NCBI RefSeq assembly: GCF_008727715.1
Contig: NZ_CP044218.1
Coordinates: 496,001 to 560,000 of the forward strand
Source of the DNA: Mesorhizobium terrae
GTDB lineage: Bacteria > Pseudomonadota > Alphaproteobacteria > Rhizobiales > Rhizobiaceae
Direction of reading: 5' to 3'
Length of the DNA: 64,000 bases
The notes below the pieces were generated by a model, which was not told where the DNA came from, ran no database searches, and saw nothing but the letters and a program-made list of their open reading frames with translations. Every line of letters starts with the position of its first letter. Position 1 is the stretch's first letter. The position numbers were made by a program, and so were the translations under genes. This document shows, in pieces, positions 32,523 through 53,600 of the stretch.

Positions 32523-32588
32523 TTCCATCTCCTGGGGAGAGCGCAGTTTCCGCCGCGCCAAGTCATTTGTTGATCAGCCTGTCAGGTC

Positions 32589-33728: not shown

Positions 33729-33772
33729 TTTCTATCCTGATCCTGCGTACAAGAAGACGGCTTATTCGGCCG

Positions 33773-34790: not shown

Positions 34791-35462
34791 ATGCCGCCAG
34801 ATCTGAATTTGCGGATTTCGCCACGAACGGTTCAGCAGGAGACCGTCGACAAGTTGCGGCTCGCCATCCTGTCCGGTCTGTTCCAGCCGGGAAGCCGCCT
34901 TGTCGAAAGCCAGCTGTGCGCGCAGCTCGGCATCAGCCGCCCCTCGCTAAGAGAGGCATTGCGGAGTCTCGAGGCCGAACGCCTGATTGAGATCGTACCC
35001 AATCGCGGGCCGTCGGTGCCAGCGCTTTCGTGGGAAGAGGCAACCGCCATCTACGAGGTTCGAGAGCTTTTGGAAGTCGAGGCGGCGGGACGATGCGCGT
35101 CACGAATTCCAGCGGAACAGCTGCGTGAACTCGAGAAGTCCCTTTCCGCATTCGAGGAGGCGGCAGCCAGCCATGACAGCCTGGCGCAGGTTGCGACCGC
35201 CGCGGACTTCTATTCGATCATACTGGCGAACTGCGGCAATCCCATCCTAGAGGAAGTCCATCGTGGCCTGGTGGCCAGGATCAGCTTCTTCCGGGGACGG
35301 TCGATGTCCCTTGAGGGCAGAGCACAAAGCAGCCTGGCGGAGATGAGGGAGATATATGAATCCATCGCCGCCGGCGATGAGAAGGCCGCTCGCAAAGCTT
35401 CGAAGAAACACCTTCTGAAGGCAAAGGCGGCGGCAAAGATATCCATGGATAGTGCGGGCTGA
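34791..35462 (+). CDS. GntR-family (FCD domain) transcriptional regulator of B6 degradation
   Basis: A 223-residue regulator. The N-terminal winged helix-turn-helix spans residues about 10-75 (QLGISRPSLREALRSLEAE), and a compact helical FCD-type ligand domain follows. It is divergent from the AAMS hydrolase operon and 158 bases upstream of the pyridoxine 4-oxidase gene on its own strand. That position makes it the probable regulator of the degradation genes, responding to a vitamer or intermediate. The ATG at 34791 lacks a clear ribosome site. The effector and sign of control are not visible in the sequence. Confidence 0.8.
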   Translation: MPPDLNLRISPRTVQQETVDKLRLAILSGLFQPGSRLVESQLCAQLGISRPSLREALRSLEAERLIEIVPNRGPSVPALSWEEATAIYEVRELLEVEAAGRCASRIPAEQLRELEKSLSAFEEAAASHDSLAQVATAADFYSIILANCGNPILEEVHRGLVARISFFRGRSMSLEGRAQSSLAEMREIYESIAAGDEKAARKASKKHLLKAKAAAKISMDSAG

Positions 35463-37454: not shown

Positions 37455-38948
37455 CTACGACCGGCGCCACTTTGCCGGACCCGTATCATGGATGGATCGA
37501 CCGCTGGCATCGACAGCGACGATGACCGGCATATCCTTTACTTCGAATTCGTGGATCGCCTCCATCCCCAGGTCTTCGAATGCCACGACCCTTGCGGAAC
37601 GAATGGATTTCGAGATCAGGTAGGCCGCACCGCCGACAGCGATCAACGAGGCGGCGCCATTCTTCTGGATCGCCTCTATGGCACCGGGTCCACGCTCTCC
37701 CTTGCCGATCGTAGCGAAAGCCCCGCCCGCACCGAGGACCGTACCCATGAACGGGTCCATCCGGTTTGCGGTCGTCGGCCCGGCCGGGCCTATGATCTCG
37801 TCTCCTGCGGCGTCCACCGGTCCGACGTAGTAGATCACCCGCCCTGCAAGTGGAACCGGAAGCGGGTCTCCAGAACTGAGAAGTCTGGTAATCCGGTGGT
37901 GGGCGGCATCACGGGCAGTCAGCAGCTTTCCTGAAAACAGCAGGGTTTGGCCTGCGCGCCACGACTGCACGTCTTCGCGGGAGAGTGTGTCCAGGTCGAC
38001 CTGTCGAGAAACAATCCCGGTTTGGTCGAGGACGACCTGCGGCCAGTCATCCGCGCATGGTGCTTCAAGCTCCGCGGGTCCAGATCCGTCCAGAACAAAA
38101 TGAACATGTCTGTGCGCCGCGCAGTTGGGAATCAGCGCGATGGGGAGGGAAGCAGCATGAGTGGGCTGCGTAAGGATTTTGACGTCCAGTACCGTGGTAT
38201 TTCCACCAAGACCCTGAGCCCCGATACCGAGAGCGTTCACGCGGTTATATATTTCAAGGCGCATCTCATCGAGCCGATCCGCAGCTCCCCTTGCCACGAG
38301 CTCATGCATGTCAAGTGGGCTGAGCAGCGCCTTTTTCGCCATGAGCATGGCGCGTTCGACGTTGCCGCCTATGCCAATTCCGAGCACGCCTGGCGGACAC
38401 CAGCCAGCTCCCATGTGCGAAACTTGATCCACTATCCAGGAAATAACGTCATCACGCGGCAGCAGCACGGCGAACTTTGTCTTGTTCTCAGAGCCGGCCC
38501 CCTTCGCCACGGCAAAAACCTCAACCGTGTCGCCGGGAACCAGCTCCACGTGAACAATTGCAGGCGTGTTGTCGTGCGTGTTGCTTCTGCCGAAGAGCGG
38601 ATCATCGACTATGGAAGAACGCAACGGATTTGCATCGTCGCAATAGGCAGCCCGTACACCGTCGTTGATGATGTCTTCGAGCGCGCGGGTTGTATCGATG
38701 CGGACATTCATGCCGACGCGCAAGAAGACGCTGGCAACACCCGTATCCTGGCAAATGGGCCTCCGGCCTAGGAGTGCCATTCGAGAATTGACCAGGATTT
38801 GGCCCATCGCACTCTTGGCGAGTGGACTTTCTTCACGCTCCCATGCCGCGGCGAGATGACGGACGAAATCCCTTGGATGGGCAAACGAGATCAGTTGGAA
38901 GGCATCCCTGATACTCTGGCGGAGGTCGTTTTCGCGAATGACGATCAT
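37455..38948 (-). CDS. Class I (4Fe-4S) fumarate hydratase, probable mesaconase
   Basis: A FumA/FumB-type hydratase of about 497 residues. The cluster-binding cysteines known from E. coli FumA are present at C66 (RRPICQDTG), C184 (AGWCPPGVLG) and C276 (IPNCAAHRH). Class I fumarases can also hydrate mesaconate to (S)-citramalate. Here the gene ends an operon that contains methylaspartate ammonia-lyase, whose product is mesaconate, so a mesaconase role is the natural reading. I use the ATG at 38948, which overlaps the lyase stop (ATGA); a TTG five codons earlier is less likely. Confidence 0.85.
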   Translation of the reverse strand: MIVIRENDLRQSIRDAFQLISFAHPRDFVRHLAAAWEREESPLAKSAMGQILVNSRMALLGRRPICQDTGVASVFLRVGMNVRIDTTRALEDIINDGVRAAYCDDANPLRSSIVDDPLFGRSNTHDNTPAIVHVELVPGDTVEVFAVAKGAGSENKTKFAVLLPRDDVISWIVDQVSHMGAGWCPPGVLGIGIGGNVERAMLMAKKALLSPLDMHELVARGAADRLDEMRLEIYNRVNALGIGAQGLGGNTTVLDVKILTQPTHAASLPIALIPNCAAHRHVHFVLDGSGPAELEAPCADDWPQVVLDQTGIVSRQVDLDTLSREDVQSWRAGQTLLFSGKLLTARDAAHHRITRLLSSGDPLPVPLAGRVIYYVGPVDAAGDEIIGPAGPTTANRMDPFMGTVLGAGGAFATIGKGERGPGAIEAIQKNGAASLIAVGGAAYLISKSIRSARVVAFEDLGMEAIHEFEVKDMPVIVAVDASGRSIHDTGPAKWRRS

Positions 38949-39853
38949 CTGCCTGTTCCGCAAAGCGCGCGACTTTGTGTAGACCCTGCCAATTCCAGAA
39001 TTCGAAAGGCGCGAGCAGCGACGGGCCAGTCGATCATGGTGCCGTTGTAGGCTACGGCGCCATGGCCGTTCCGATTCCCAGTTTCGAAATGGCGTATTAT
39101 GTTTCTTGCGTGCTCAACTTCCTCCTCACTTGGAGCAAAAACTTCGTTGAGGACCGCGGCCTGGGCCGGATGTATGCAAAACGCACCTGTCATTCCCCAC
39201 GACCGTGCCGCCATCGCACCAGCGCGGAACACTTGAAGATCGCCAAACTGCGTGATGCTGGCCCCGAGCCCAAGCGGCTGGCAACCAGCTTCAGCCGCAG
39301 CAACAATCAGCATATGCTTGTAGGTCGCCAGGGTGCTGGACTCGACTGAACAGCCAAGTGCCAGCGCCAAATCCTCATCACCGAATGCAATGGCCGCCAC
39401 GCGGGCTGCTGCGGCGATCTCCCGCAAGCGGAACAGGCCGCCGGGTGTTTCAACCAAGGGTACGAGAACGGTAGCACCGCTGGCACGGCCGCACCCCTTT
39501 TCCGCTTTGCCGAGCAAATCGGAAAAACGGTTGAGGCTGTCAGCATCTTCCGCCTTGGGAACGACGATACCGTTTGCACCGGCCTGGATCGCCGCCATCA
39601 CATCTGCTTCACACCGATCCGGGAGGTTGTTTATTCGAACGAGCAGGTCGCAATCATGCCATTCGTTCCGGGCGAGCGCGGCAGCGAACCCATCGCGCGC
39701 TGTGCTTTTTTGAGCTTCGGGAACGCTGTCTTCGAGATCGACAACGACAGCATCGGCACCTCTCTTTGCCGCGCCGGCAAGCAGGCGAGCCTGGTTGCCC
39801 GGCACGAACAACAGCGACCGCCATGCGCGGCGCACTTGCACATTCCCTGTCAT
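38945..39853 (-). CDS. CitE/HpcH-family CoA-ester lyase, possible citramalyl-CoA lyase
   Basis: A 302-residue TIM-barrel lyase of the CitE/HpcH/Mcl family. It has the N-terminal RSLLFVPGN motif, the VVVDLEDSVP metal-site segment, VPLVETPGG and FGDEDLALALG. Relatives split citryl-CoA, malyl-CoA, beta-methylmalyl-CoA or citramalyl-CoA. With the neighbouring fumarase-like hydratase and CoA-transferase, (S)-citramalyl-CoA to acetyl-CoA plus pyruvate fits best. Four-base overlaps on both sides (with the fumarase and CoA-transferase genes) show tight co-translation. Confidence 0.83.
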   Translation of the reverse strand: MTGNVQVRRAWRSLLFVPGNQARLLAGAAKRGADAVVVDLEDSVPEAQKSTARDGFAAALARNEWHDCDLLVRINNLPDRCEADVMAAIQAGANGIVVPKAEDADSLNRFSDLLGKAEKGCGRASGATVLVPLVETPGGLFRLREIAAAARVAAIAFGDEDLALALGCSVESSTLATYKHMLIVAAAEAGCQPLGLGASITQFGDLQVFRAGAMAARSWGMTGAFCIHPAQAAVLNEVFAPSEEEVEHARNIIRHFETGNRNGHGAVAYNGTMIDWPVAARAFRILELAGSTQSRALCGTGR

Positions 39854-40989
39854 GCGCTCAACGCCGTCGCGAACTCGCGTCGCACCGCCGCCGTATGTTC
39901 GCCGAGTGGCGGGACCGGACGGGCATGGAACGCGATGGCGTCCTCGATGGCAGCCGGCGCTATGACGCGGATTTCGCCAGTCTCCGTAGCCACCTCGACA
40001 AACCGCAGGTGGGGATGGGCAGACGCCTCGTGAAGATCGTTCAATCGGCCATAGGCAATGCCTGTGTCTTCAAGGCGCTGAACGGCCACATCAACATCGA
40101 GCAGCGAGAAGCGCTCCGCAATCAGTTGGTCGAGTTCAGGGCGATTGGCTACCCTGCTGCTGTTATCTCTGAACCGGGGATCGCGCGCGAGGTCCGGCAG
40201 TTCCAGGAATTGCTCACACAGCAGTCGCCATTCCCGCTCGTTCTGAATGGAGAAGATGACTTGGGAGCCGTCGCTGCAGGCGAATGCTCCGTAAGGTGCG
40301 ATGCTTGGATGAGCGACACCGCTCCGCGAGCTCACCTGGCCGCCATAGAGGTACTGCAATATTGGAACATTCATCCAGTCGGCAATGCTATCGAACAGCG
40401 ACACCTGGATCGAACGCCCCCTGCCGGTACGGTTCCGGGCAACCAGCGCCTGGAGGATTGCCGCATGGGCTGTCATTCCGGCAGATATATCACAAACCGA
40501 TACCCCCACGCGGGCCGGCCCCGCGACGGTTCCGGTTATGGCGCATAGGCCGCTCTCTGCCTGTACGATAAGGTCGTAGGCCTTGAGGCCGGCGCGTGGC
40601 CCTTCGGTGCCAAATCCGGTAATATCGCAGGTAATCAAGCGGGGGTTCTCGGCGCGGAGCGAAGCGGAACGAAGACCAAGTTTATCGAGCGCACCGGGCT
40701 TGAGGTTCTGGATGAAGACATCCGCCGACAGGATCATCGTCTTCAGCAGCGCCGCGTCGGCCGGGGACTTCAGGTCAAGACAGACCGATTCCTTGCCCCT
40801 GTTGAGCCAGATGAAGTATGCGCTTTGCCCTTCGACCAATCGATCGTAGTGGCGAGCAAAGTCGCCGCCATCCGGCCGCTCGATCTTTATGACCCGTGCG
40901 CCGGCATCCGCGAGGCGACATGTCGCATAAGGTGCCGCGACCGCCTGTTCGATCGCTACGACAGTCAAGCCTTTGAGATCATCCTGCAT
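39850..40989 (-). CDS. Class III (CaiB/BaiF) CoA-transferase
   Basis: A 379-residue family III CoA-transferase. Seen are the N-terminal LKGLTVVAIEQAVAAPYAT segment, RPDGGDFAR, the conserved NRGKESVCLDLKSP and the active-site Asp region TCDITGFGTEGP. Such enzymes move CoA between carboxylic acids, typically from succinyl-CoA. In this operon it should activate citramalate or mesaconate to its CoA ester for the CitE-like lyase. Citramalate is preferred because no mesaconyl-CoA hydratase gene is present. Overlaps: ATGA with the lyase gene, one base (TGATG) with the ammonia-lyase gene. Confidence 0.85.
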   Translation of the reverse strand: MQDDLKGLTVVAIEQAVAAPYATCRLADAGARVIKIERPDGGDFARHYDRLVEGQSAYFIWLNRGKESVCLDLKSPADAALLKTMILSADVFIQNLKPGALDKLGLRSASLRAENPRLITCDITGFGTEGPRAGLKAYDLIVQAESGLCAITGTVAGPARVGVSVCDISAGMTAHAAILQALVARNRTGRGRSIQVSLFDSIADWMNVPILQYLYGGQVSSRSGVAHPSIAPYGAFACSDGSQVIFSIQNEREWRLLCEQFLELPDLARDPRFRDNSSRVANRPELDQLIAERFSLLDVDVAVQRLEDTGIAYGRLNDLHEASAHPHLRFVEVATETGEIRVIAPAAIEDAIAFHARPVPPLGEHTAAVRREFATALSA

Positions 40990-42251
40990 CAGTGATCCTG
41001 CCCTCTAACGTTAGCTGCCTCTTTCCGTGTCAGTTCAGCGAGAAGGCGCGATTGTTCGTTGCCGACGATCGAGATCGCCTCGTCGACACCCATGCCTGGC
41101 TTGGCAAGGATCATGTCGGCGCCGGTCGCTACTGCGATGTGGACTGCTATGCGGGCCGAAAGATCGGTTTCGACGCAGCTTCCTCCCAGATAGGCGCCGA
41201 TGCCGTGGCGCTTGCAAAGCAGCACGGCCTCTGCGCTGTCGGCGATACTGCCCACATCCGGCATCTTGATCTGGATGAGGTGAGCGGCACCGGCCGAAGT
41301 GAAGGCTCTGACGTCATCGAGCGTATTGCACCATTCGTCGGCGACGATCTTCGCTCGACATCCTTTTCGAGCAAGCGCTTCCATAATCATGATGAAGCCG
41401 TCGATCTGACCTTGGCGGCTGCCGAAGTCGGCAGGGCTTTCAATTTGGAGATCGAAGGGCGCCGCGCGCTCCGCGGCTTGCGCCATGAAATCCGCGATCC
41501 GATCGACATCGAGCCCGAGCCCGAGCCCCACCCATCCGTAGACGTCGAAATGGAGTACCGGCTTGTACGCAGGTTGGCCGAGCCGCTCGACGCGTCGCGC
41601 GACCCAGTCCACATATTCAAGGAACACTTCTCCCCGCTCGCCAAACTTGGAGCGGGAATTGATAAGGCCATGCGGCAGAATATCGACTGATTTCAGGATC
41701 ATCTTGTCGACGTTGTTGCGCCGATCGTCGCCGCTTTGTGCGTAAATCGGGACCCGCCTCGCGACGACTGGACAGGAGAATTCCGCCGCCACGACTTCGG
41801 CCATCGTCACCTTGCGCGCCGCTGCAGCAGCAGCCAACAGCGCCTGGCTTGCGCCATATTCGATCGAAAGTGGCAGGCGCTTTCCGCCGGGAAGAGCGGC
41901 CAAAACGACCCGGCAGGCAGCCCGAAAGTCCGTGACGTCCAAACCGTTCAGCCGCGGAAGTAGAACCTCTTCACACAATCGTTGGGCGGTGACGGGATCG
42001 AACAACGGGTCGCGCCCGCCTGCTCCGGCGTACTGAACGCTCATCATGTCGCCCCAAGCCGTCGTGCCCTGGCCGAGTACAAGCCCTATGCCAAGCGAGG
42101 TGCCAGGCTTGCGGACAGTGTCGAACCCCGGGGTGATCGGCGCGCCAAGGTAGACGAAGCCGTCTGTGTCACGACCCGCGCGGATGGCGGCCTGGTCATC
42201 GTAGAAGAATGCGCCCATGCCTGGCGCGAAGATAACGTCCTTGACTATCAT
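40989..42251 (-). CDS. 3-Methylaspartate ammonia-lyase
   Basis: Eliminates ammonia from L-threo-3-methylaspartate to give mesaconate. It is an enolase-superfamily enzyme of 420 residues, a normal length. It shares the diagnostic N-terminal pattern of MAL proteins (GFVYLGAPITPGF, VQYAGAGGRDPLF), the catalytic Lys in HLIQIKMPDVGS and the tail KPGMGVDEA. MAL normally follows glutamate mutase in glutamate fermentation; no mutase gene is in the window, so the substrate may come from outside or from the amidase next door. The stop overlaps the CoA-transferase start by one base. Confidence 0.9.
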   Translation of the reverse strand: MIVKDVIFAPGMGAFFYDDQAAIRAGRDTDGFVYLGAPITPGFDTVRKPGTSLGIGLVLGQGTTAWGDMMSVQYAGAGGRDPLFDPVTAQRLCEEVLLPRLNGLDVTDFRAACRVVLAALPGGKRLPLSIEYGASQALLAAAAAARKVTMAEVVAAEFSCPVVARRVPIYAQSGDDRRNNVDKMILKSVDILPHGLINSRSKFGERGEVFLEYVDWVARRVERLGQPAYKPVLHFDVYGWVGLGLGLDVDRIADFMAQAAERAAPFDLQIESPADFGSRQGQIDGFIMIMEALARKGCRAKIVADEWCNTLDDVRAFTSAGAAHLIQIKMPDVGSIADSAEAVLLCKRHGIGAYLGGSCVETDLSARIAVHIAVATGADMILAKPGMGVDEAISIVGNEQSRLLAELTRKEAANVRGQDH

Positions 42252-43699
42252 GCGTGTTGCCTATTTTCGATCTGATCCTGTCGTGTGCTCGTCCGTGGCG
42301 GATCCGAGAAGAGGTCGGGTACATCGAGGTGCCAGTCCGTGAGGGTCTGGAACAGCATGCCGATTTCGATGAGACGAGCCTCCGAGAACGGACGGCCGAC
42401 GATCTGCATTCCAACGGGCATTCCATTGCGGTCGCGCCCACACGGCACTGTCAAAGCAGGCACGCCGAGATAATTGAGCCAGCGGGTCCATCGGGTCATA
42501 CGGCCGACGAGATCAGGCATTGCGCCCAGCAATTCCTCGTCGGTTTCCTCGACAGTCGGAACGGCAACCCCGACAGTCGGCACAATCAAGGCATCGACCT
42601 TCGCAAGCGTCTCCTCGACAAATCGCTGGAGCCACAATTCCCGCTGCGACAGAGCGTCAATGTAGGTCGCGGCGGACACGAAGTAGCCAGGTTCGATCCT
42701 CCGGCGAATATGGGGCGTATAGTCAGCGCCGCGCTCCGAGAGGCGCCCGCGATGGACGGCGGCGGACTCGGCCTTCTGGATAACGTCTGCGAGCTTGTGC
42801 AAATGACTGACATCGGTAAGTTCGACATCGTCGATCGCAACGCCAGCTCGTTCGAGATCGAGCGTGGCGCCCGTGAGCGCGATCAGCACGTCGCTATCTA
42901 CATCGCTGACATCCTTCGGAAAACCAAGCCGAAGTTTGCCCGGGTCGGCCGCGCGGCCATCAAAAACACCATTGCCCGCGAATGCGCCCGAAAGCGCAGT
43001 GGGATCGCGGAGATCGCGACCTGAAGCGGCCGCCATCAGTATTCCGCAGTCCTCGGCGCTGCGGGCTAGTGTCCCGACGCAATCAAGTGATGGTGAAAGC
43101 AACATCGCACCGGCACGGCTGAGCTGTGCCTGTGTAGGCTTTAGCCCCGTAATGCCATTGACCGATGCCGGGATGCGCACCGAACCACCGGTGTCAGATC
43201 CGAGTGACGCCGGCACGATACCGGCACCCACTGCGGCTCCAGATCCTGCCGATGAGCCTCCGCTGATCCGCTCGGGATCGCGCGCGTTGCGGCAGTGTCG
43301 AAAGGGAGTGTTGTGTCCGGTGGGACCAAGTGCGAACTCGGCCATCGAGAGAAACCCGACCGTAACCGTTCCCGCCGCTTCAAGGCGATCAACTACGGTC
43401 GCCGCGGTTTTGGCCGGGACCTCTTGTGGTATGCGAGATCCATAAGAGGAACGATGCCCCGGATAGTCGAACATGTCTTTGTGAGCGAGAGGCACCCCGC
43501 AAAGAGGCTTTGTCGCTTTCTCCTCGCTGGCATTGTCGATCTGCCTGGCGAGCAGGGCCGCGGACTCAGGGTAAGTCGCACGGAAAGCATTCAAACGAGG
43601 CTGCCATTTATCAGCGGCGCCGAGTGCACGGCCGACGGCTTCTTCCGAAGAAATCCTGCGTGTCTTGATGGCGTATGAAAGTTCCGCGAGCGTCTTCAT
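42248..43699 (-). CDS. Amidase signature family hydrolase (GatA/AtzE-like)
   Basis: An amidase of 483 residues with a full Ser-cisSer-Lys triad: K74 (AHKDMF), S149 (ISGGSSAGSGAAV) and S173 (GSDTGGSVRIPAS). It overlaps the methylaspartate ammonia-lyase gene by four bases and is itself overlapped by a small AtzG-like gene. Both overlaps argue for one functional unit. It may hydrolyse an amide that yields 3-methylaspartate or a precursor, but its substrate cannot be read from sequence. A tRNA-amidotransferase role is unlikely because no gatB gene is nearby and the context is catabolic. Confidence 0.85.
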   Translation of the reverse strand: MKTLAELSYAIKTRRISSEEAVGRALGAADKWQPRLNAFRATYPESAALLARQIDNASEEKATKPLCGVPLAHKDMFDYPGHRSSYGSRIPQEVPAKTAATVVDRLEAAGTVTVGFLSMAEFALGPTGHNTPFRHCRNARDPERISGGSSAGSGAAVGAGIVPASLGSDTGGSVRIPASVNGITGLKPTQAQLSRAGAMLLSPSLDCVGTLARSAEDCGILMAAASGRDLRDPTALSGAFAGNGVFDGRAADPGKLRLGFPKDVSDVDSDVLIALTGATLDLERAGVAIDDVELTDVSHLHKLADVIQKAESAAVHRGRLSERGADYTPHIRRRIEPGYFVSAATYIDALSQRELWLQRFVEETLAKVDALIVPTVGVAVPTVEETDEELLGAMPDLVGRMTRWTRWLNYLGVPALTVPCGRDRNGMPVGMQIVGRPFSEARLIEIGMLFQTLTDWHLDVPDLFSDPPRTSTRQDQIENRQHA

Positions 43700-43902
43700 T
43701 GACCGACCTTGGAAGCGTAAAACGTCATTGCGCGCAGAAAGGACGAAGGTTCGGCATGAGGGGGAAGCGGCGTTCTCGATACTGCTGCCGAGAGCTCCGA
43801 TGCCTCCCTGCTCATAGCCTCGATCCGGTTCGGTGACAGACGTGACAGGATTTCCCCGTCGACGGCGACACCCGCAATGTTGTTGTCGTGCTGCTCTGAC
43901 AT
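43696..43902 (-). CDS. AtzG-like (DUF4089/GatC-like) small amidase partner
   Basis: A 68-residue protein with a VAVDG segment near the N-terminus and a PLPPHAEPSSFLRA segment near residue 50. This pattern resembles AtzG, a GatC-like subunit that pairs with the amidase AtzE. The stop overlaps the amidase start as ATGA. It is separated from the livM gene by 80 bases. The similarity is short and from memory, but a 68-codon gene coupled to an amidase is exactly the AtzE-AtzG arrangement. It probably stabilises the amidase. Confidence 0.65.
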   Translation of the reverse strand: MSEQHDNNIAGVAVDGEILSRLSPNRIEAMSREASELSAAVSRTPLPPHAEPSSFLRAMTFYASKVGQ

Positions 43903-43982
43903 TTGGCTTTCGCTCGCCTGCTGCTGTTCCAGGACCGGGGTTGTCTAAATGCGGTATCGGATTGTTGATCTGGTTTTGGCGT

Positions 43983-45293
43983 TTAGCCCTTCGCGGGCAC
44001 CAGCCCCGCTGGCCGGAATCGCATCACCAGGAGAAGTACCAGGCCCACGATCGGCAATCGCGTCTGCACCGCCGCGTCGAGCAGATGCTGCTTCAGCGGT
44101 CCATCATCCAGCAACGCGGTTGCGGTTCTGAATAGTGCGGGACCAAGACTTTCCGCCTCGTCCCAAACGAGCATGACAATCAGTGCTCCCAGCACGGAAC
44201 CCCAGTTGTTCCCAGAACCGCCCAGGATCACCATGGCCCAGATCAGGAAGGTGTAACGAAGGGGATCGTTGTAGCTCGTGGGGGAAAGCAACCCGTGCAG
44301 CGTCACATACAGCGCACCCGCAACGCCGATCACCGCCGAGCCCAGTATGAAAACCTGCAAGTGTCGGCGCTTAACGTCTTTGCCCATCGCCTCAGCCGCG
44401 ACCTCATTGTCCCGGATCGCCCGCATCATGCGACCCCAGGGCGACTTCAGTGAAAGCTCGGCGAACGTAAGTACGATGATGAGCACAGCCGTGAAAAGTC
44501 CCGCGAAACACAGTCCGACAAAGACCGTGGAACCGGCGCGGACATCCATGCCCACCGATTGAGCGAGTGAGGCGAACCACGGCTGTTGTTGCAAAGCGAC
44601 TTCTTCGGGCACTGGCCATCGGCCAATATTGGTGACGTTCTTCACGCCGCGATCTAGCCAGTCCTCATTCATCATGATCGCGATGACGATCTGGCTGATG
44701 CCGAGCGTCACGATGGCGAGATAATCGGAGCGTAGCCCCAATGCGATTTTTCCGACTGCGAAAGCGGCGGCTGCCGCAAGCACTCCTGCAAAGAGCCAGG
44801 ACATAGGGATCGGAAGACCCATACCGCCGATATTGCCGGTAGATGCAGGCGTGATCGCTTCGACCGAAATTACCGCCGGATCGAAGATGGTGCGAAACGC
44901 GACCAAGCCGACAAGCAACACTGCAATCATCGCACCAATGCGCTTAGGGCCTCGGGCCATCCGGCTGCGGATTTGGGTGGCGATGAAGATGCCGACAGCC
45001 CCGAGAACCAGCGCAAGCAGAATGGCAGGCGTGCCTGCTGACCAGGCGGCGGCATCAAACGGCTTCGAGACCAGTATGACCGCAAGTCCGCCCAAAGCAA
45101 AAAAGCCTGCTACGCCGACGTTGAAGAGGCCAGCATATCCCCACTGCATGTTCACGCCGAGCGCCATGATTGCAACGATCAGACTATCGTTGAGGATGGT
45201 TATGGCCAAAGACCAGCTCTGGAAAATACCCGCAAGCAAGTAGAGCGCGGCGACAGCCAGGAAAAAGAGGGTCGAACGAAACGTCGAACTCAT
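43983..45293 (-). CDS. livM: LivM-type branched-chain amino acid ABC permease
   Basis: A membrane permease of 436 residues, somewhat longer than many LivM proteins, with ten or so hydrophobic segments and the family's MQWGYAGLFNVGVAGFFALGG region. A hydrophilic insert around residues 195-260 faces one side of the membrane. It overlaps livH by four bases (ATGA). It belongs to a complete LivJGFHM set in the methylaspartate operon, so the transported compound is probably an amino acid or dicarboxylate related to methylaspartate rather than leucine. Confidence 0.87.
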   Translation of the reverse strand: MSSTFRSTLFFLAVAALYLLAGIFQSWSLAITILNDSLIVAIMALGVNMQWGYAGLFNVGVAGFFALGGLAVILVSKPFDAAAWSAGTPAILLALVLGAVGIFIATQIRSRMARGPKRIGAMIAVLLVGLVAFRTIFDPAVISVEAITPASTGNIGGMGLPIPMSWLFAGVLAAAAAFAVGKIALGLRSDYLAIVTLGISQIVIAIMMNEDWLDRGVKNVTNIGRWPVPEEVALQQQPWFASLAQSVGMDVRAGSTVFVGLCFAGLFTAVLIIVLTFAELSLKSPWGRMMRAIRDNEVAAEAMGKDVKRRHLQVFILGSAVIGVAGALYVTLHGLLSPTSYNDPLRYTFLIWAMVILGGSGNNWGSVLGALIVMLVWDEAESLGPALFRTATALLDDGPLKQHLLDAAVQTRLPIVGLVLLLVMRFRPAGLVPAKG

Positions 45294-46300
45294 AGCGATT
45301 TCCCCCTAAATAGCCCCGTCGGTCGAAGCAGAAGCACAATCACCAAGATCGCGAAGGAGACCGCGAACTTGTATTCGGTGGCCAGAAGCTGGACGAGCCC
45401 GTGCGGGGCCAGGTCCGCCGGCAGCATGTAGCCGAGTACCTTGCGCCATGCGTAGGTGAGCGTGACTTCGGAGAACGCGACGACGAAACCGCCGGCGATC
45501 GCACCAACCGGATTGCCGAGCCCTCCGACGACCGCAGAGGCAAATATCGGCAGTAGAAGCTGGAAGTAGGTAAAGGGCGCAAACGACTTGTCGAGTCCGT
45601 AGAGCACGCCGGCAACGGTGGCGAGTGCCGCGACGATCAGCCAGGTAACCATCACCACGCGTTCGGGATTGATGCCTGACAGGAGGGCGAGGTCTTCATT
45701 GTCGGAGAACGCACGCATCGACTTGCCGGTACGAGTGCGGTTCAAGAACCAAAACAGGAGCGCGACCACGACGACAGCCGTGACAAAGGTAATCACGCTG
45801 GTCGTGCGCAGCGCCAATCCCTCCTTGAGGCCGGTCATCTCGCGGAACTGGATCGTGTCGATGATAAATCGCTGCCCATCGGCGAAATTGCGGTCCTGCA
45901 CGCCAATAATGAAGCGGGTCACCCCGTTCATAATGAACATGACCCCCATGGACACGATGACCAGCACCACCGGAGCGGTCTTCTTCTCACGGTAGAAACG
46001 ATAGACAGCGCGGTCGGTGAACAGGAGAAGCGTCGCCGTGATGAGAATTCCAAAGGGAAGTGCCAGCAGTGCCGTCGGCAGTGGGCCTAAGCCAATTCCC
46101 TTCGACTGAAGCCACCACGTTATCAGGACTGTAATCGCAGTCCCGAAAGCCATGGTGTCGCCATGCGCGAAATTCGAGAAGCGCAGTATTCCGTAGATCA
46201 GCGTCACACCGAGCGCACCCAGAGCCAGTTGCGATCCGTAGGACGTCGCCGGGATGACTACGAAATTTAACAACGCAACCAGAGAGTTGAGGAAATTCAT
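45290..46300 (-). CDS. livH: LivH-type branched-chain amino acid ABC permease
   Basis: A permease of 336 residues with about eight hydrophobic segments, and the typical GALGVTLIYGILRFSNFAHGD region near residue 30, shared by LivH proteins. The gap to the livF gene is five bases and the stop overlaps livM. It forms the transport channel with LivM. Length is slightly above the common 290-310, due to longer loops around residues 90-170. Confidence 0.87.
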   Translation of the reverse strand: MNFLNSLVALLNFVVIPATSYGSQLALGALGVTLIYGILRFSNFAHGDTMAFGTAITVLITWWLQSKGIGLGPLPTALLALPFGILITATLLLFTDRAVYRFYREKKTAPVVLVIVSMGVMFIMNGVTRFIIGVQDRNFADGQRFIIDTIQFREMTGLKEGLALRTTSVITFVTAVVVVALLFWFLNRTRTGKSMRAFSDNEDLALLSGINPERVVMVTWLIVAALATVAGVLYGLDKSFAPFTYFQLLLPIFASAVVGGLGNPVGAIAGGFVVAFSEVTLTYAWRKVLGYMLPADLAPHGLVQLLATEYKFAVSFAILVIVLLLRPTGLFRGKSL

Positions 46301-46305
46301 GTCGC

Positions 46306-47217
46306 TCAGCCCCCCAGGAAGGTCTTGCGGACATCCGGATCGGCGAGCAGCGCTTCTCCGGTGTCGGTGTAGCGATTGGCTCCCTGGACGAGCACATAAC
46401 CCTTGTCGGCGATGTTGAGCGCTTGGCGCGCGTTTTGCTCTACCATCAGAATAGAAATGCCCGTACGGGACACTTCGATGATGCGATCGAAGAGTTCGTC
46501 CATAACGATAGGCGATACGCCCGCCGTCGGCTCATCGAGCATCAACACCTTGGGTTGTGTCATCAACGCGCGGCCAACCGCAACCTGCTGGCGCTGTCCC
46601 CCTGAGAGTTCTCCAGCCGGCTGGTGACGCTTGTTCTTGAGTGCCGGGAACAGCTCGTAGATCTGGTCCATCGTCGACTGGATTGCATCGCGACGCAGGA
46701 AGGCACCCATTTCAAGGTTCTCTTCGACCGTCATCGACGTAAAAATGTTTGACGTCTGCGGAACAAAAGCCATGCCCTTGGCAACCCGATCCTGTGGCGA
46801 CAGGCCGGAGATGTCCTCGCCATTGAGCTTCACCTGGCCGGCGCGAAGCTTGAGCATGCCGAAGAGAGCTTTCATGGCGGTCGACTTGCCGGCACCGTTC
46901 GGTCCCACGATCACCGCCACCTGGCCCTTATTCACCGAAATGCTGCAGCCTTGGAGAATGTCGACTGTGCCGTAACCGCCTGTCATCGCAGAGCCAACGA
47001 GGAATGGCGCACTGGCACCACCTCCACTCTCGGCCGCACCCGTCGGTTGACCGAGACCGGGGGTAGAGTGTTGATCAGCGCGCAACTGCGAAGATCCGCT
47101 ATCAGATGTCATGGCCTTCGTTCGGTCAGAAATTGACATCAGACGCCAAAACATTCCGGAAACGAGCGAGCGCTGCTTTACCTCGCCGGGCTTCGAAAGG
47201 ACGGTCGCGTCAAGCAT
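46306..47217 (-). CDS. livF: LivF-type ABC ATP-binding protein with an N-terminal extension
   Basis: An ABC ATPase: Walker A GPNGAGKST, Q-loop FVPQTSNIF, signature LSGGQRQQ, Walker B VLMLDEPTAGVSP. LivF is usually about 235 residues; this frame has 303. The extra 70 or so residues at the N-terminus are Ser/Gly-rich and not conserved-looking. Starts at 47217 (overlapping the livG end by eight bases, with a weak AAGG site) or 47112 are possible. The ATPase core begins near SAMTGGYGTVDILQG. It works with LivG to drive uptake. Confidence 0.83.
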   Translation of the reverse strand: MLDATVLSKPGEVKQRSLVSGMFWRLMSISDRTKAMTSDSGSSQLRADQHSTPGLGQPTGAAESGGGASAPFLVGSAMTGGYGTVDILQGCSISVNKGQVAVIVGPNGAGKSTAMKALFGMLKLRAGQVKLNGEDISGLSPQDRVAKGMAFVPQTSNIFTSMTVEENLEMGAFLRRDAIQSTMDQIYELFPALKNKRHQPAGELSGGQRQQVAVGRALMTQPKVLMLDEPTAGVSPIVMDELFDRIIEVSRTGISILMVEQNARQALNIADKGYVLVQGANRYTDTGEALLADPDVRKTFLGG

Positions 47218-47992
47218 GGGCTTTGACCTTGTTCTTCAGGCCCCGGCCGAGATAAGCCTCAATGACTGCGTCATTCTCCATGATGTGCGCGGCAGATCCT
47301 TTGGCGAGCACCTTACCTTCGGCCATGACGATGACGGGGTCGCAGAGCCGGGCGATAAAATCCATGTCGTGCTCGATGATGCAGAATGTGTAACCGCGCT
47401 CCTTGTTGAGCCGCACGATCGCATCGGCGATGGTGTTCAGAAGACTGCGATTGACGCCTGCGCCGACCTCGTCGAGAAAGACGACCTTGGCGTCGACCAT
47501 CATGGTGCGTCCGAGTTCGAGCAGCTTTTTCTGCCCGCCCGAGATGTTCGCGGCCTTTTGATGCGCCAGGTGCGAGATAGTCAGGAAGTCGAGCACCGCA
47601 TCGGCCTTCTCCGCAAGCGCGCGTTCCTCTTTGGCGATCTCGCGTCGGCGGAACCAGGTGTTCCACAGTGTCTCGCCCTTCTGGTTGCTCGGGACCATCA
47701 TCAGGTTTTCGCGCACTGTCATCGCGCCGAACTCATGCGCGATCTGAAAGGTCCGCAGCAAACCGCTGTGGAAGAGCTCGTGAGGCGACAACCCGGTGAT
47801 GTCCTCACCGTCCATGAAGACGCGGCCGGAGGACGGAGGCAGCCTTCCAGCGATAACGTTGAAAAGCGTGGTCTTGCCCGCGCCATTCGGCCCGATCAGA
47901 CCGGTGATCGAGCCTTTGGCGATCTCCAGCGAGGCCCCACGCACGGCTTGGAACCCGCCAAAGTTTTTGTGCAAGTCTTCGACGATAATCAT
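47210..47992 (-). CDS. livG: LivG-type ABC ATP-binding protein
   Basis: An ABC ATPase of 260 residues, the normal length for LivG: Walker A GPNGAGKTT, signature ISGGQKKL, Walker B VVFLDEVGAGVN, where the usual DEPxAG is DEVGAG. I start it at the ATG at 47992 (MIIVEDLHKNFGG). The frame is open 31 codons upstream, but that includes the stem-loop region and reads as unrelated sequence. It lies between the livJ and livF genes. Confidence 0.86.
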   Translation of the reverse strand: MIIVEDLHKNFGGFQAVRGASLEIAKGSITGLIGPNGAGKTTLFNVIAGRLPPSSGRVFMDGEDITGLSPHELFHSGLLRTFQIAHEFGAMTVRENLMMVPSNQKGETLWNTWFRRREIAKEERALAEKADAVLDFLTISHLAHQKAANISGGQKKLLELGRTMMVDAKVVFLDEVGAGVNRSLLNTIADAIVRLNKERGYTFCIIEHDMDFIARLCDPVIVMAEGKVLAKGSAAHIMENDAVIEAYLGRGLKNKVKAHA

Positions 47993-48059
47993 GCGGACTA
48001 CTTTCCTTCCGGTCCCTCGCTTCTCGCCGGCAAGGCGGCAAGCGGGGCCAATTGGCAGG

Positions 48060-48084
48060 TGAACGGCCGACATGCGGCCGTTCA
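48060..48084 (-). promoter_or_regulatory. Intercistronic stem-loop between livJ and livG
   Basis: A perfect 10-bp inverted repeat, TGAACGGCCG (48060-48069) and CGGCCGTTCA (48075-48084), with a 5-base loop. It begins 20 bases after the livJ stop on the transcribed strand. No T-run follows, so it more probably shields the livJ message than ends transcription. Confidence 0.68.
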
Positions 48085-48104
48085 AACGACACCAGGTTAA
48101 GCAC

Positions 48105-49298
48105 CTATTGCGCGTAGTAGTCCGTGACTTGCTTGCCGTCTTTGATCGAATAGACGCGGTAGCTTCCCGCGGATTCGCCAGGCTCGACGAGCTTGACGCC
48201 CGTCGCGCCTTCGTAGTCGATTGGCTTTCCCTCGGACAGAAGCTTCAGCCCTTTTGCGATTTCACCGGGGTAGATTTTCTCGCCGGGGCCGTTCGCGACC
48301 GACATCACCTTGTCCTTGAAGTCGGCAGACTTCGGCGATTTTGCCGCCTGCATGGCAAGAAGAATGAGTGCCATCGCATCATAAGTCTCGCCGGTATATG
48401 ACGAGGTACCGTCGAAACCCGCAGCCTTGGTCATCTCCAGGAACTTTGCATGACCAGGGCTGTCGATACCCGGCACATCCCCAAAGGAGCCGTTCATCGG
48501 CTTGCCGATCGCCTTCAGAAGGCTATCGCCATACATGCCATCGGGCAGATAGAATTTGTCGAAGGCTCCCGCGTCGAGAGCGCCCTGGATCACACCCTTG
48601 CCGCCCTTGTCGACATAGCCTGCGACTACCAGCATGTCGCCTCCGGCGGATGCAAGCGTGCCAACCTCGGCCGAATAGTCGGCCTTGCTGTCCTCGTGAG
48701 GCACGGTGATCGTTACCTTGCCACCTGCTTTTTCATAAGCAGCCTTGAAGCTGTCGGCGAGACCCTTGCCGTAGTCGTTGTTGGTGTAGGTCAGTGCAAC
48801 CGACTTGACGCCGCGCTTGAGAATTACGCTGGCCATGACTTCGCCCTGCCGCGCATCGGACGGCGCGGTGCGGAAGAACAAGCCGTCGTCCGGAGCGGTG
48901 GTCAGGGCGGGGGAAGTGGCATCGGGCGAGATCATGACGATGCCGTTGGGACGAGCAACCGATTGCAGAACGGCTCCCGTCACCCCCGAGCAGTCCGGGC
49001 CAACGATCGCGGCCACGCGCTCCGACGTTATCAGCCGCTGAGCGGCCGCGATTGCCGCGGCGCTATCGATGCAGGTTGAATCGCCAGTGACGATTTTGAC
49101 AGGTGTCCCGGCGAGAAACGTCTTCGAGTTATTCGCCTCCACAACCGCCATCTGTGCCGATTTCTCCATCGAAGGCACGATCGATTCCAGCGGGCCCGTG
49201 AAGCCCAGTTCGACACCAATTTTAACCTCCTCGGCGCTCGCAATCGTAGCTGTTGCGAGCGTGCCGACGGCAACAAGACTGATAAGTGCTTCTTTCAT
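48105..49298 (-). CDS. livJ: LivJ-type ABC transporter substrate-binding protein
   Basis: A periplasmic binding protein of 397 residues from the Leu/Ile/Val-binding (Peripla_BP_6) family. The signal peptide (LISLVAVGTLATATIASA) ends near residue 22, followed by the typical opening EEVKIGVELGFTGPLES. The ligand-binding core includes VGPDCSGVTGA and LTYTNNDYGKG. It opens the eleven-gene leftward methylaspartate operon and is divergent from a LysR gene. Family members bind many amino acids, amides and short acids; the gene set suggests methylaspartate, its amide, or mesaconate. Confidence 0.87.
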   Translation of the reverse strand: MKEALISLVAVGTLATATIASAEEVKIGVELGFTGPLESIVPSMEKSAQMAVVEANNSKTFLAGTPVKIVTGDSTCIDSAAAIAAAQRLITSERVAAIVGPDCSGVTGAVLQSVARPNGIVMISPDATSPALTTAPDDGLFFRTAPSDARQGEVMASVILKRGVKSVALTYTNNDYGKGLADSFKAAYEKAGGKVTITVPHEDSKADYSAEVGTLASAGGDMLVVAGYVDKGGKGVIQGALDAGAFDKFYLPDGMYGDSLLKAIGKPMNGSFGDVPGIDSPGHAKFLEMTKAAGFDGTSSYTGETYDAMALILLAMQAAKSPKSADFKDKVMSVANGPGEKIYPGEIAKGLKLLSEGKPIDYEGATGVKLVEPGESAGSYRVYSIKDGKQVTDYYAQ

Positions 49299-49566: not shown

Positions 49567-50502
49567 ATGGACATTCGCCAGTTGCGGTATTTTGTCGGGG
49601 TGGCGGAGGCGGCGAGTTTCTCGCGAGCAGCGCTAAGGATGAATGTGGCCCAGAGCGCGCTCAGCCTTCACATTCGGCGCATCGAGGAGGATCTCGGTGT
49701 CGACCTTTTCATTCGAGAACCGAAGGGGGTCAGGCTGACGTCGGCTGGCGTGAAGCTGCTCGATCACGCCAATATCATCCTGCGCCAGCTCGCTTTGGCG
49801 CAGGACGAGCTAAAAGCGGACAGGGGAATGCCAGCCGGAACGGTCGCCATCGGCGTTCCCTCGGGCGCAAGCCGCATTCTCGTCAATCCGCTCCTCGAGG
49901 CGGTTCACAGCAACCTGCCCCGCGTCACGATTCGTATCGTGGAGGCAATGACGGGCTACCTGCGTGATTGGCTGAGCATGGGCCGGCTGCACATGGCGGT
50001 CACCTACGCCAGGTCCGATGCCGAGGGTGCCGAACCGATCCTGGCCCAGGAGGATCTGCATCTTGTTACGCCGACAAACTTCGAGCATCCGGCCGCCACG
50101 ATCACGCTGGACGAGATCGCGAAACTGCCGCTACTGCTTCCCACTGGCAGTCATAGTCCGGCAAGCATCATAGGCGAAGTGGCGCACAGTCTCGGTGTGA
50201 CGATCAAGATCGAACTCGAAATCGATTCGCTCTGGAGCATCCTCGACCAGGTCGCAAACGGTCACGGGTTTTCCATTCTTGCACCTTCGGCGTTTCTGCC
50301 GGAATGGTCTGCCGGACGCGTACGCGGACTGCCAATTGTCCAGCCGATCATTTCCCGCACGGCAAGACTAACTGTCGCGCACAAATTTGCCGACGACGCG
50401 GCGACGCAAGCCGTCGCCCGCCAGATTGCCCAGACGTGTAGTCAACTTGTGCAGTCCGGAGATTGGCCAAGGCGTCTGCCGAACAATGACCGTCGTGGTT
50501 AA
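49567..50502 (+). CDS. LysR-family transcriptional regulator
   Basis: A 311-residue LysR regulator. The N-terminal winged helix-turn-helix (MDIRQLRYFVGVAEAASFSRAA, residues 1-60) is followed by a substrate-sensing domain with the usual GVPSGASR opening near residue 95. I start it at the ATG at 49567, with a GAGG site; upstream codons in the frame lie in the divergent promoter. It faces the livJ gene across 268 bases, the standard arrangement for a LysR protein controlling a divergent catabolic operon. The co-inducer may be mesaconate or methylaspartate; this is inferred. I saw no clear T-N11-A operator. Confidence 0.84.
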   Translation: MDIRQLRYFVGVAEAASFSRAALRMNVAQSALSLHIRRIEEDLGVDLFIREPKGVRLTSAGVKLLDHANIILRQLALAQDELKADRGMPAGTVAIGVPSGASRILVNPLLEAVHSNLPRVTIRIVEAMTGYLRDWLSMGRLHMAVTYARSDAEGAEPILAQEDLHLVTPTNFEHPAATITLDEIAKLPLLLPTGSHSPASIIGEVAHSLGVTIKIELEIDSLWSILDQVANGHGFSILAPSAFLPEWSAGRVRGLPIVQPIISRTARLTVAHKFADDAATQAVARQIAQTCSQLVQSGDWPRRLPNNDRRG

Positions 50503-50676: not shown

Positions 50677-53600
50677 CTAGAAACTGACATTCAAATCGGC
50701 TCTGACGCCATGGTCGCGAGCGTTGGCGGCGAGCTGGCCCTGGTATGAGATGCCGAGGGTGGCTGTCGGTGTCAGCGCGACGTCGAGACCTGCCTCCAGT
50801 GCGGTGCTGTCACGGGCGATCGGCACGCCGGCGATGGTGAAGGCGCTTGAGCCGGCGAAGGCCTGCGTGATCGTCGGCGTGACATCGCCGAAACCATGGC
50901 GCCAGCCGAACATGCCGCGTGCTGTCGTCTTGACGGCGCCGAGGTCGAAGTCGGTCGAGGCGCGAATGCCGAAGGTGGTGAAGGTGACGGCGTTGGAGCC
51001 GCCACGGACGGCGAGTGCCGCGGCACCGCCCTTCTCGGTGAAGCCGCTGGTATGGACATTGACATAGGCAAGGTTGGCGAAGGGCTCGAAGGCGACGTTG
51101 CCTGCCTTCATGCCATAGCCGAGTTCGCCGAAGATCTGCGTGGTGCCGGCGCGATGGCTGGAGGAGAGGCTGTCGGTGAAACCGGGCAAGGATACCTGGC
51201 GGCCGCTGTCGATATTGCTCCACGTATAAGCAAGGCCGGAGCGCAAGGAGAGCGCACCCCATTGCGTGCCGCCGTAGGCGCCGAGATGGTAGTTGTCGCT
51301 GGAGGCAGATGACCGTCTGTCATCGACTTTGAACGAAGAATGGCTGTAGCCGGCGAGGAAACCCAGCCGCCAATCGTCGGTGACGAGACCGTCGATGCCG
51401 GTGACGAAGCCGCCGGTCGAGCGCGACAGTTTGGCGGCATTGCCGTCGCTGTCGCTCGAACCCCATGAACCGAAGGCCGAACTCCAGGCGCCGTAGCGTT
51501 CACCGGAACTAGCAGACGCCGTCGCCGAACCCGCTGGCGCGATCGAAGCCGTTGCCTCCAGCGCGGCATTGCCCTCTGCCGCCTCGCCATAACCCATCAA
51601 AGGCAGCGGTGCGGCACCAACCGTCTCGAACGCCGAACGGAGCCGATCGTTGATCGCATCGCGTATCAGGCGGCTGTCTTCGATCAGCCCAGTCACCGTC
51701 GAGGCATGCACCTCACCCGACAGGCCATCGAAGGCGGAACGGGCTTCATTGGCCGACAGCGGAAGCAGTTTGTTGTAGAGCGCCAAGGACGGCCCGCTCT
51801 GCTCCAGGCTGTCCAGCGCGCCTGCCGCCTGCTTGCGATTGAAGGTGTCGGCCACAGTGCCGAACACCAACTTACCACCTGGATCGCCCCCAGGATTACC
51901 ACCTGGATCACCGCCAGGGCTGCCGCCCGGGTCGCCACCTGGATTGCCGCCGGGGTCGCCACCTGGATCACCGCCAGGGCTCCCACCTGGGTTGCCACCG
52001 GGATTTGAACCCTTGAGGGCGATCTTCAGATCGGCCGTATTCGGCTTTTCCACGACGGTGGCATCGAGGAAGGCTGAATGCGACAAAACCGTCGGATCGA
52101 ACTTGCCGGTGACACCACCGGCAGCGGTCAGGATCGTATAGGTCTGGCCGTTCTTGTAGCTGGTCTCGGGATCGAGCGCGGTGACTTCGACCTTGGCGCC
52201 GTCGACAGAGGCCAGTCCGCTCGTCACGATGCGGTCGCTGGCGCCGTTGCCGGCGATCTCGACCAGATAGGTCGACCCGGGCGCAAGCGAAAGGTCGCCG
52301 GCGACGGTGAGTGTGCCGATCGAATTGCCGGGCGAAATTGTCGCCCCGGAATCGAGATAGGTCGAGCTGACGGAACCGGTACCCGCGAGCGTCGCGCCGG
52401 CGTTGACCGTGACACGGCTGGACGAGGCGATGGAGCCGTTGACCGATAGTGTGCCGGCGCTGACGACGGTGCTTGCCGTGTAGGCGGCAACGTCGCTGAA
52501 GATGAGCTTCCCTGCGCCAGTTTTGTGAATGCCGAACGCACCGCCGTCTTCGACGATCATGCCCGCATGTTCGGCCGATCCCGACGCGACCAGGAATTTC
52601 GCGACGCCGGTCAGATTGACGGTGTTGCGCAGTTCGATCCCAGAGGCGAAGTCGAGCGTCGTGGCGTCCGCCATGGTTACTGTGCCGGTGCCCAGCGCAT
52701 TTGCGTTCTCGATGCGGATGACGCCCCCTCGGAAATCGGTGCCGCCGCTATAGGTGCTGGCGCCCGACAGGGTCAGCGTGCCGACGCCCTGTTTGATCAA
52801 CTCGACCCGGCCCGCGCTGTCTTCGATATGACCTGTGAAATCTCCACGGCTGCGTACCACCACTTGCGACGTCGTTTCCGCCGCGCTGTTGGTGATTGTT
52901 CCGGCCCCATCAAGGACCAGCGCCGTGACGCCATCGTTCCCATTCAGGTCGTAACGCCCGGAGTCATAGAGATACAACCGACCACGCGACGTCGACGTTC
53001 CAAAACCGCTGTTGCGTCCAAGCCGGAGCGTCGAGTTGTATATCGCCGTGAGGGAGTTTTCGCCGACGAACGCAGCGGCGTCGATTTCGATGGTACCTCC
53101 GCCGCTGAATCTCAACGAGCTGTCGTGACCGGCGCCGACGCGGCCCATGAACCCGCCACTATCGGCAATGAGATGCAATGTCTCGTTCGGCATCACCGAG
53201 ACGATGGAAGTGCCCGCATTGTCGGCCTGCGTCAGGCTCTGAAGATGAAGTTCGCCGCCCTTGAGGAACAGGATACCTCCTCCATCGGCGAAAGAGAGGC
53301 TGCCGGAGCCCAGCGCCTGAGGCGTTGCCAGCTGAAGCTGCCCCCACCCGCGGACGCGCGTCTCCCCGGTATAGGTATTGATGCCCGATAGAAGCAGTTG
53401 CCCGAAGCCGATTTTCTCGATTCCGTTCGAACCTGTGATGGGGCCGGACTGGACAGCAATTGTGCTGTTGGAAGCATCGAGCACGACATTGCCCGCATTG
53501 GTATCGATGGGGGCCGATCGGACCTCTCCCGACGAATAGGTGATGGTTTCGGCATACGCCTGCAGGCACATGCCCATACTCGCTGCCGCCAGCGCCGTTG

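Follow-up and report, generated by a model that had tools for sequence, protein, structure and literature searches.

A glutamate-mutase-independent operon of Mesorhizobium terrae proposed to degrade amide-bound 3-methylaspartate through mesaconate and citramalyl-CoA

We analysed a 64,000-nt stretch of DNA from Mesorhizobium terrae, a soil-dwelling relative of legume symbionts (the window; NZ_CP044218.1 positions 496,001 to 560,000, with all coordinates below counted within this stretch) that contains an operon encoding 3-methylaspartate ammonia-lyase (MAL). Eleven open reading frames (ORFs), all present and intact on the minus strand, run from 49298 down to 37455 in the order SBP-livG-livF-livH-livM-small ORF-amidase-MAL-CoAT-CitE-Fum, and a regulator gene diverges from them:

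48105..49298, minus strand: periplasmic substrate-binding protein (SBP) of the Liv/HAAT type, first gene of the operon (Peripla_BP_6, PF13458)
47210..48085, minus strand: LivG-type ABC ATPase (PF00005); the listed start is TTG and the real start is probably further in
46306..47217, minus strand: LivF-type ABC ATPase (PF00005) with an N-terminal extension; the real start is probably further in
45290..46300, minus strand: LivH-type permease (PF02653, BPD_transp_2)
43983..45293, minus strand: LivM-type permease (PF02653, BPD_transp_2)
43696..43902, minus strand: small ORF of 68 aa, putative amidase partner, conserved in the related locus L111
42248..43699, minus strand: amidase-signature hydrolase (PF01425), proposed to free 3-methylaspartate from an amide
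40989..42251, minus strand: MAL (TIGR01502)
39850..40989, minus strand: class III CoA-transferase (CoAT; PF02515), proposed (S)-citramalate CoA-transferase
38945..39853, minus strand: CitE-like HpcH/HpaI lyase (PF03328; alignments to CitE-family structures), proposed (S)-citramalyl-CoA lyase
37455..38948, minus strand: class I fumarase (Fum; PF05681 and PF05683), proposed mesaconase
49567..50502, plus strand: divergent LysR-type regulator (PF00126, PF03466); the ORF is listed from 49411

Six of the ten junctions within the operon are overlaps of four bases or one base (Fum/CitE, CitE/CoAT, CoAT/MAL, MAL/amidase, amidase/small ORF and livM/livH), with the fumarase start taken as the ATG at 38948 and not the TTG at 38963. 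Of the remaining four, three are gaps (5, 19 and 80 bases) and one is an 8-base overlap that is contingent on the livF start. The LysR gene lies outside the range 37455..49298 and is nonetheless part of the operon system; its start at 49567 was chosen by comparison with L111, which has the same start. A reading made from the sequence alone (the sequence-only reading) had described eleven leftward and mostly overlapping genes for a Liv importer, an amidase with a small partner, MAL, a CoA-transferase, a CitE-like protein and a class I fumarase; the ORFs and junctions agree with that layout, and family profiles bear out the gene identities. The contig carrying the window measures 5.73 Mb in a two-contig genome of 6.02 Mb and is therefore probably the chromosome. 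A megablast search of the operon against plasmids returned no near copy; each of the four records found matched over a single short segment, 3% of the query or less, within an ABC-transporter gene.

Conservation of the operon as a unit is evident from L111, a locus in a second genome of the same genus (G458; the window's own genome is G000). All eleven genes and the LysR gene are present there in the order and orientation of the window. Protein identities are 81.3% for LysR, 79% for CoAT, MAL and Fum, 70% for the amidase, 69.7% for LivG, 69.2% for LivF, 64.5% for LivH, 63% for CitE, 52.8% for SBP, 51.6% for LivM and 51.6% over 62 residues for the small ORF product. Codon position 3 is the most frequently differing position in all 12 genes, accounting for slightly under half of all differences in SBP, livM and the small ORF. 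Together, the preserved order of 12 genes and the position-3 excess argue that the gene set of the window is not a chance arrangement. MAL is rare in the surrounding taxa: at E<=1e-80 the order sample of 397 genomes contained 7 with MAL and the class sample of 385 contained 4 (the window's own genome being counted in each), and 7 of 199 genomes of the family have a match above the family cut-off. Among the nine same-genus genomes listed, five carry MAL, G000 and G458 in the window type and G331, G402 and G500 with an aldehyde dehydrogenase.

The window MAL scored 574.8 bits against TIGR01502, for which the cut-off is 286.15. Of 14 positions checked in the active-site region, 11 are identical to the solved clostridial enzyme 1kcz. 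The retained residues include His194 and Lys331, which we take to be the acid-base pair, the three Mg ligand positions, Gln73, Tyr356 and Leu384; Leu384 and Tyr356 presumably line the methyl pocket, and Gln73 and Leu384 presumably limit the size of the amine and of the substituent. Divergent MAL paralogs, 38-43% identical and with up to four matches per genome, were observed at L120-L125 and L110. These keep the acid-base and metal residues and have lost Gln73 (Ile or Ala) and Gln172 (Ser, Gly or Ala), so that their substrate must differ; several of them adjoin an aminotransferase or aldehyde dehydrogenase.

No source of 3-methylaspartate from glutamate was detected; the usual one is glutamate mutase, a vitamin-B12 enzyme. 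A whole-genome profile search for glutamate mutase E (TIGR01503) found nothing in G000, G458 or G331, although it succeeded on each of its three positive controls (a Caloramator genome and two plasmids from rhizobia). The earlier statement that the operon lacks a glutamate mutase and does not serve the usual glutamate route is thus supported at the level of the genome.

The fumarase contains both class I domains in a single chain, and three of its cysteines align with those of 5l2r. A search of the genome turned up no second class I copy, and at another position a class II FumC scores above its cut-off; the window fumarase therefore need not serve the citric acid cycle. The CoA-transferase has an Asp at the position aligned to 10uh, presumably a functional residue. 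Among the eleven genes, the CitE-like gene is the only one related to a three-subunit citramalate lyase, a search confined to the operon.

Comparison of genomic neighbourhoods points to a mesaconate pathway for these enzymes. Ensifer adhaerens (L100) and Rhizobium sullae (L101) carry GlmS-MutL-GlmE-MAL-CoAT-CitE followed by a LysR gene and fumarase; Gemmobacter fulvus (L129) has a histidine-utilisation cluster followed by GlmS-GlmE-MAL-CoAT-CitE, with the fumarase past LysR on the other strand. Because glutamate mutase precedes MAL at these three loci, 3-methylaspartate must be the MAL substrate there and mesaconate the intermediate. Identities to the window proteins are 46-51% for MAL, 50-52% for CoAT and 35-37% for CitE, and for fumarase 57-58% in L100 and L101 and 30% in L129. 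The Gemmobacter cluster (L129:5617-20783) lies on plasmid p2 and, with its genes for histidine utilisation and glutamate mutase ahead of those for MAL, CoA-transferase, lyase, LysR and fumarase, likely forms a complete route that starts at histidine and passes through methylaspartate.

Closer relatives of the window MAL occur in other settings. We collected 43 loci with a MAL of at least 53% identity, the window excluded, and counted same-strand genes within 11 kb; in this set L116 and L014 are one and the same place, and several loci are cut by contig ends. CoAT was present at 37 loci, CitE at 30, class I fumarase at 28, aldehyde dehydrogenase at 30, class III aminotransferase at 14 and an amidase (within 2.5 kb) at 3, with GlmE at none. 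By comparison, GlmE accompanies 43 of 52 loci whose MAL is 44 to 53% identical. The near relatives mostly adjoin an aldehyde dehydrogenase, often together with an aminotransferase. Six genomes, five of them lacking a nearby fumarase, all contain a class I fumarase domain somewhere. MAL, transferase, CitE and mesaconase would accordingly be one core with exchangeable entry steps, the entry of the window being the amidase and its small partner.

Other neighbours were noted at single loci. At L022, a 481-aa racemase-like protein (L022:14801-16246, other strand) adjoins MAL-CoAT-CitE-Fum; its C-terminal half matches cysteate/aspartate racemases, above the cysteate racemase cut-off, and it might provide an entry for D-methylaspartate. 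L027 has an M20 hydrolase upstream of MAL with a thiamine-diphosphate enzyme in between. At L114:5336-10658 an aminotransferase, an ectoine-hydrolase-like M24 protein (271/613 bits) and an aldehyde dehydrogenase directly precede MAL, and a protein of the same kind lies with Ehu-type transporter genes upstream of MAL at L098:1126-2370; both M24 proteins fall below the DoeA cut-offs, in what looks like an ectoine route joined to MAL. We infer that the neighbours in L022, L027 and L114 are different ways to a 3-methylaspartate-type amino acid, the racemase and M20 cases being one locus each.

The amidases linked to MAL (window, L111, L115 and L023) group in a single clade of the sampled tree, which was printed without support values, and adjoin MAL in three MAL lineages. 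In the 397-genome sample of the order, two genomes have the amidase at E<=1e-105, and each has it adjacent to MAL. The window amidase falls under the cut-offs for GatA (247/481.1 bits) and AtzE (279.2/461 and 265.1/425.75 bits), and a GatA above its cut-off is encoded elsewhere in the genome. A residue comparison with GatA was set aside, since the acid near the substrate is replaced in the window amidase and equally in more distant amidases. Two other matches were recorded, a Mesorhizobium loti amidase (P0004) that groups with the G458 amidase in the tree, and one of 43% on an Azospirillum plasmid. The only database match of the small ORF is a 97%-identical 68-aa protein. GatC was considered as its identity, and by eye, with no profile test run, it bears no resemblance to the GatC-like ORF before the genome's gatA. 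At L023 a separate small ORF looks like the N-terminal extensions carried by P0018, P0035 and P0024, the last being the amidase of L115. This resemblance suggests joint action of amidase and partner; the window small ORF resembles the L023 ORF and those extensions loosely.

The importer is a complete Liv/HAAT set of one binding protein, two permeases and two ATPases, all scoring too low for the equivalogs of named leucine or urea systems. In our alignments, the three Liv-type binding proteins share a Glu, which we take to contact the amino group of the ligand, where the window protein has Lys and those of L111 and L115 have Gln. With the amidase encoded in the same operon, this replacement weakly favours a ligand lacking a free alpha-amino group, such as N-acyl or amide-linked methylaspartate. 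An amide or N-acyl form of (2S,3S)-3-methylaspartate is thus a plausible imported substrate, at somewhat less than even odds.

Taken together, we propose a glutamate-mutase-independent catabolic operon for amide-bound or N-blocked (2S,3S)-3-methylaspartate, with a probability of roughly 0.6, every reaction, the order of steps and the substrate being deduced from the genes. The Liv-type importer would take up the blocked compound, from which the amidase and its partner would free 3-methylaspartate. MAL would convert this into mesaconate and ammonia, the fumarase would hydrate mesaconate to (S)-citramalate, the CoA-transferase, with succinyl-CoA as the probable donor, would form (S)-citramalyl-CoA, and the CitE-like enzyme would split it into acetyl-CoA and pyruvate. 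The probable signal for the divergent LysR protein is the substrate or an intermediate. We hold the core from mesaconate through citramalate to citramalyl-CoA with good confidence. The sequence-only reading had the operon take up a methylaspartate compound and degrade it to acetyl-CoA and pyruvate; the chain is upheld by the residue checks, the mutase search and the neighbourhoods, although free 3-methylaspartate need not be what is transported and the transferase and lyase steps rest on gene context.

Several observations weigh against this proposal. The transferase lies below the curated cut-offs for succinate-glutarate CoA-transferase (257/750 bits) and oxalate CoA-transferase (239/522 bits), and the lyase below those for RipC/Ccl (143.1/375 bits) and the citE equivalog (175.3/443.4 bits); it is these scores under the cut-offs of characterised enzymes that leave the two steps dependent on context. 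MAL differs from 1kcz at F170Y, T332M and T360S; Ser at position 360 is also found in mutase-linked MALs (for example L037 and L039), and Tyr170 is common among MALs of this alphaproteobacterial group. Even at E 10, Pfam yields nothing for the small ORF. By sequence, the amidase-linked MALs are not one clade: in the MAL tree the window groups with L111, L115 has a branch of its own whose exact place is weakly supported, and L023 makes a third branch. At L023 the amidase, MAL and CoAT lack a CitE or fumarase in the vicinity; at L115 the fumarase is distant (31%) and the CitE lies on the opposite strand; and L028 and L029 have MAL without any partner, as does L117. L012, L015, L016 and L052, with MAL and CoAT and no nearby CitE or fumarase, also fit poorly. 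In a scan of 397 genomes of L023's family, MAL was found only in L023's own genome, with no further amidase-MAL pair.

Three other schemes were considered. The operon could act on the unmethylated analogue, hydrolysing an asparagine-like compound or N-acyl-aspartate, with MAL as an aspartase, the fumarase forming malate, the transferase forming malyl-CoA and the lyase splitting that into glyoxylate and acetyl-CoA. Class I fumarases do use fumarate, according to PMC4682846, and malyl-CoA lyases occur among the CitE-family structures. The genome already has FumC, however, and MAL-CoAT-CitE follow glutamate mutase in L100, L101 and L129. MAL is weakly active on aspartate in general, yet the window enzyme exceeds the cut-off of its own family and keeps the presumed methyl pocket of Leu384 and Tyr356, and we consider this scheme unlikely. 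A further unlikely scheme, graded a little lower, is that MAL acts on another 3-substituted or N-substituted aspartate with a different carbon skeleton: F170Y, T332M and the variable neighbours at related loci speak for it, whereas Gln73 and Leu384, the presumed size-limiting residues, are kept and the CoAT-CitE-fumarase set suits a C5 acid. Finally, mesaconate could be activated first, as in haloarchaea, and the CitE-like enzyme could split beta-methylmalyl-CoA into glyoxylate and propionyl-CoA. CoAT does match succinyl-CoA:mesaconate CoA-transferase, at 206.9 bits against a cut-off of 700, but the eleven genes include a free-acid hydratase and no mesaconyl-CoA hydratase, making this scheme very improbable.

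The underlying chemistry is already known. Class I fumarases are described as mesaconases, with MAL-fumarase clusters that include glutamate mutase and a chain from mesaconate to citramalyl-CoA (PMC4682846), and an itaconate-cluster CoA-transferase is active on (S)-citramalate and inactive on mesaconate (PMC12290011). Mesaconate utilisation by (Para)burkholderia xenovorans (Kronen et al. 2015) resembles the window in its class I fumarase mesaconase, CoA activation of (S)-citramalate and citramalyl-CoA lyase; as described in PMC4682846 and PMC12290011, it is without MAL, amidase and importer, all three of which the window has. The transferase and lyase of that bacterium belong to the itaconate pathway. 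The methylaspartate pathway of glutamate fermentation (Clostridium; enterobacterial fumD cluster, PMC4682846) likewise uses MAL and then a class I fumarase as mesaconase. Unlike it, the window has no mutase, replaces citramalate lyase with a CoA-transferase and a single CitE-like lyase, and adds an importer and an amidase. The haloarchaeal methylaspartate cycle (see also PMC5592240) shares MAL and a class III CoA-transferase with the window, but there (PMC8307300) a mutase feeds MAL and mesaconate becomes a CoA ester before hydration, in place of the free-acid fumarase. The mutase-type clusters L100, L101 and L129 share the MAL-CoAT-CitE order with a class I fumarase and LysR nearby, but are fed by GlmS/GlmE and have core proteins 30-58% identical to those of the window. 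Nearer are L097, L098 and L099 (Mesorhizobium, S. meliloti LMB1 and Microvirga), with the same mutase-free core and MAL and CoAT at 61-65%, in which an SSADH-like aldehyde dehydrogenase, an AsnC regulator and a class III aminotransferase replace the amidase and Liv importer. Our literature search, confined to one library, found no description of a mutase-free, amidase-fed operon with its own importer.

The flanks of the operon hold other genes. Directly beyond the LysR gene, 50677-53697 encodes a 1006-aa autotransporter with a passenger repeat motif. On the other side, genes for an AA_synth protein, an FAD monooxygenase-type protein and an alpha/beta hydrolase (31932-34603, minus strand), with a GntR gene (34791-35462, plus strand), look like a separate ring-cleavage or hydrolysis cluster. 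Elsewhere, the one rhizobial mention that the literature search brought up is a table in PMC4417242, where genes of a Neorhizobium galegae subgroup listed close together comprise MAL/glutamate mutase, fumarase, 4-aminobutyrate transaminase, aldehyde dehydrogenase, agmatinase and C27-monooxygenase; a link of this group to the host guanidine galegine is speculation. A connection to microcystin was considered for a pond sphingomonad (L052) and for the Gemmobacter from an Anabaena culture (L129). Microcystin holds a D-methylaspartate residue. The idea was dropped, as the scanned neighbours at L052 gave no convincing link and L129 is the histidine-utilisation and glutamate-mutase cluster.

The presence of MAL is commonly taken to indicate glutamate fermentation. 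In the window and the 43 related loci it occurs without a nearby glutamate mutase, mostly beside a module for CoA-dependent citramalate cleavage. Tentatively, amide-bound or N-acylated 3-methylaspartate may be a soil nutrient pool opened by an undescribed amidase and its small partner, and the core may be a general C5 funnel that five or more interchangeable modules can feed (glutamate mutase; an amidase; a racemase; an M20 hydrolase; and an aminotransferase paired with an aldehyde dehydrogenase, one locus of the last having the ectoine-hydrolase-like enzyme). The binding protein and amidase make the substrate of the operon directly testable, and the mutase-free MAL loci suggest that rhizobia and other alphaproteobacteria have an overlooked route for branched C5 amino acids.

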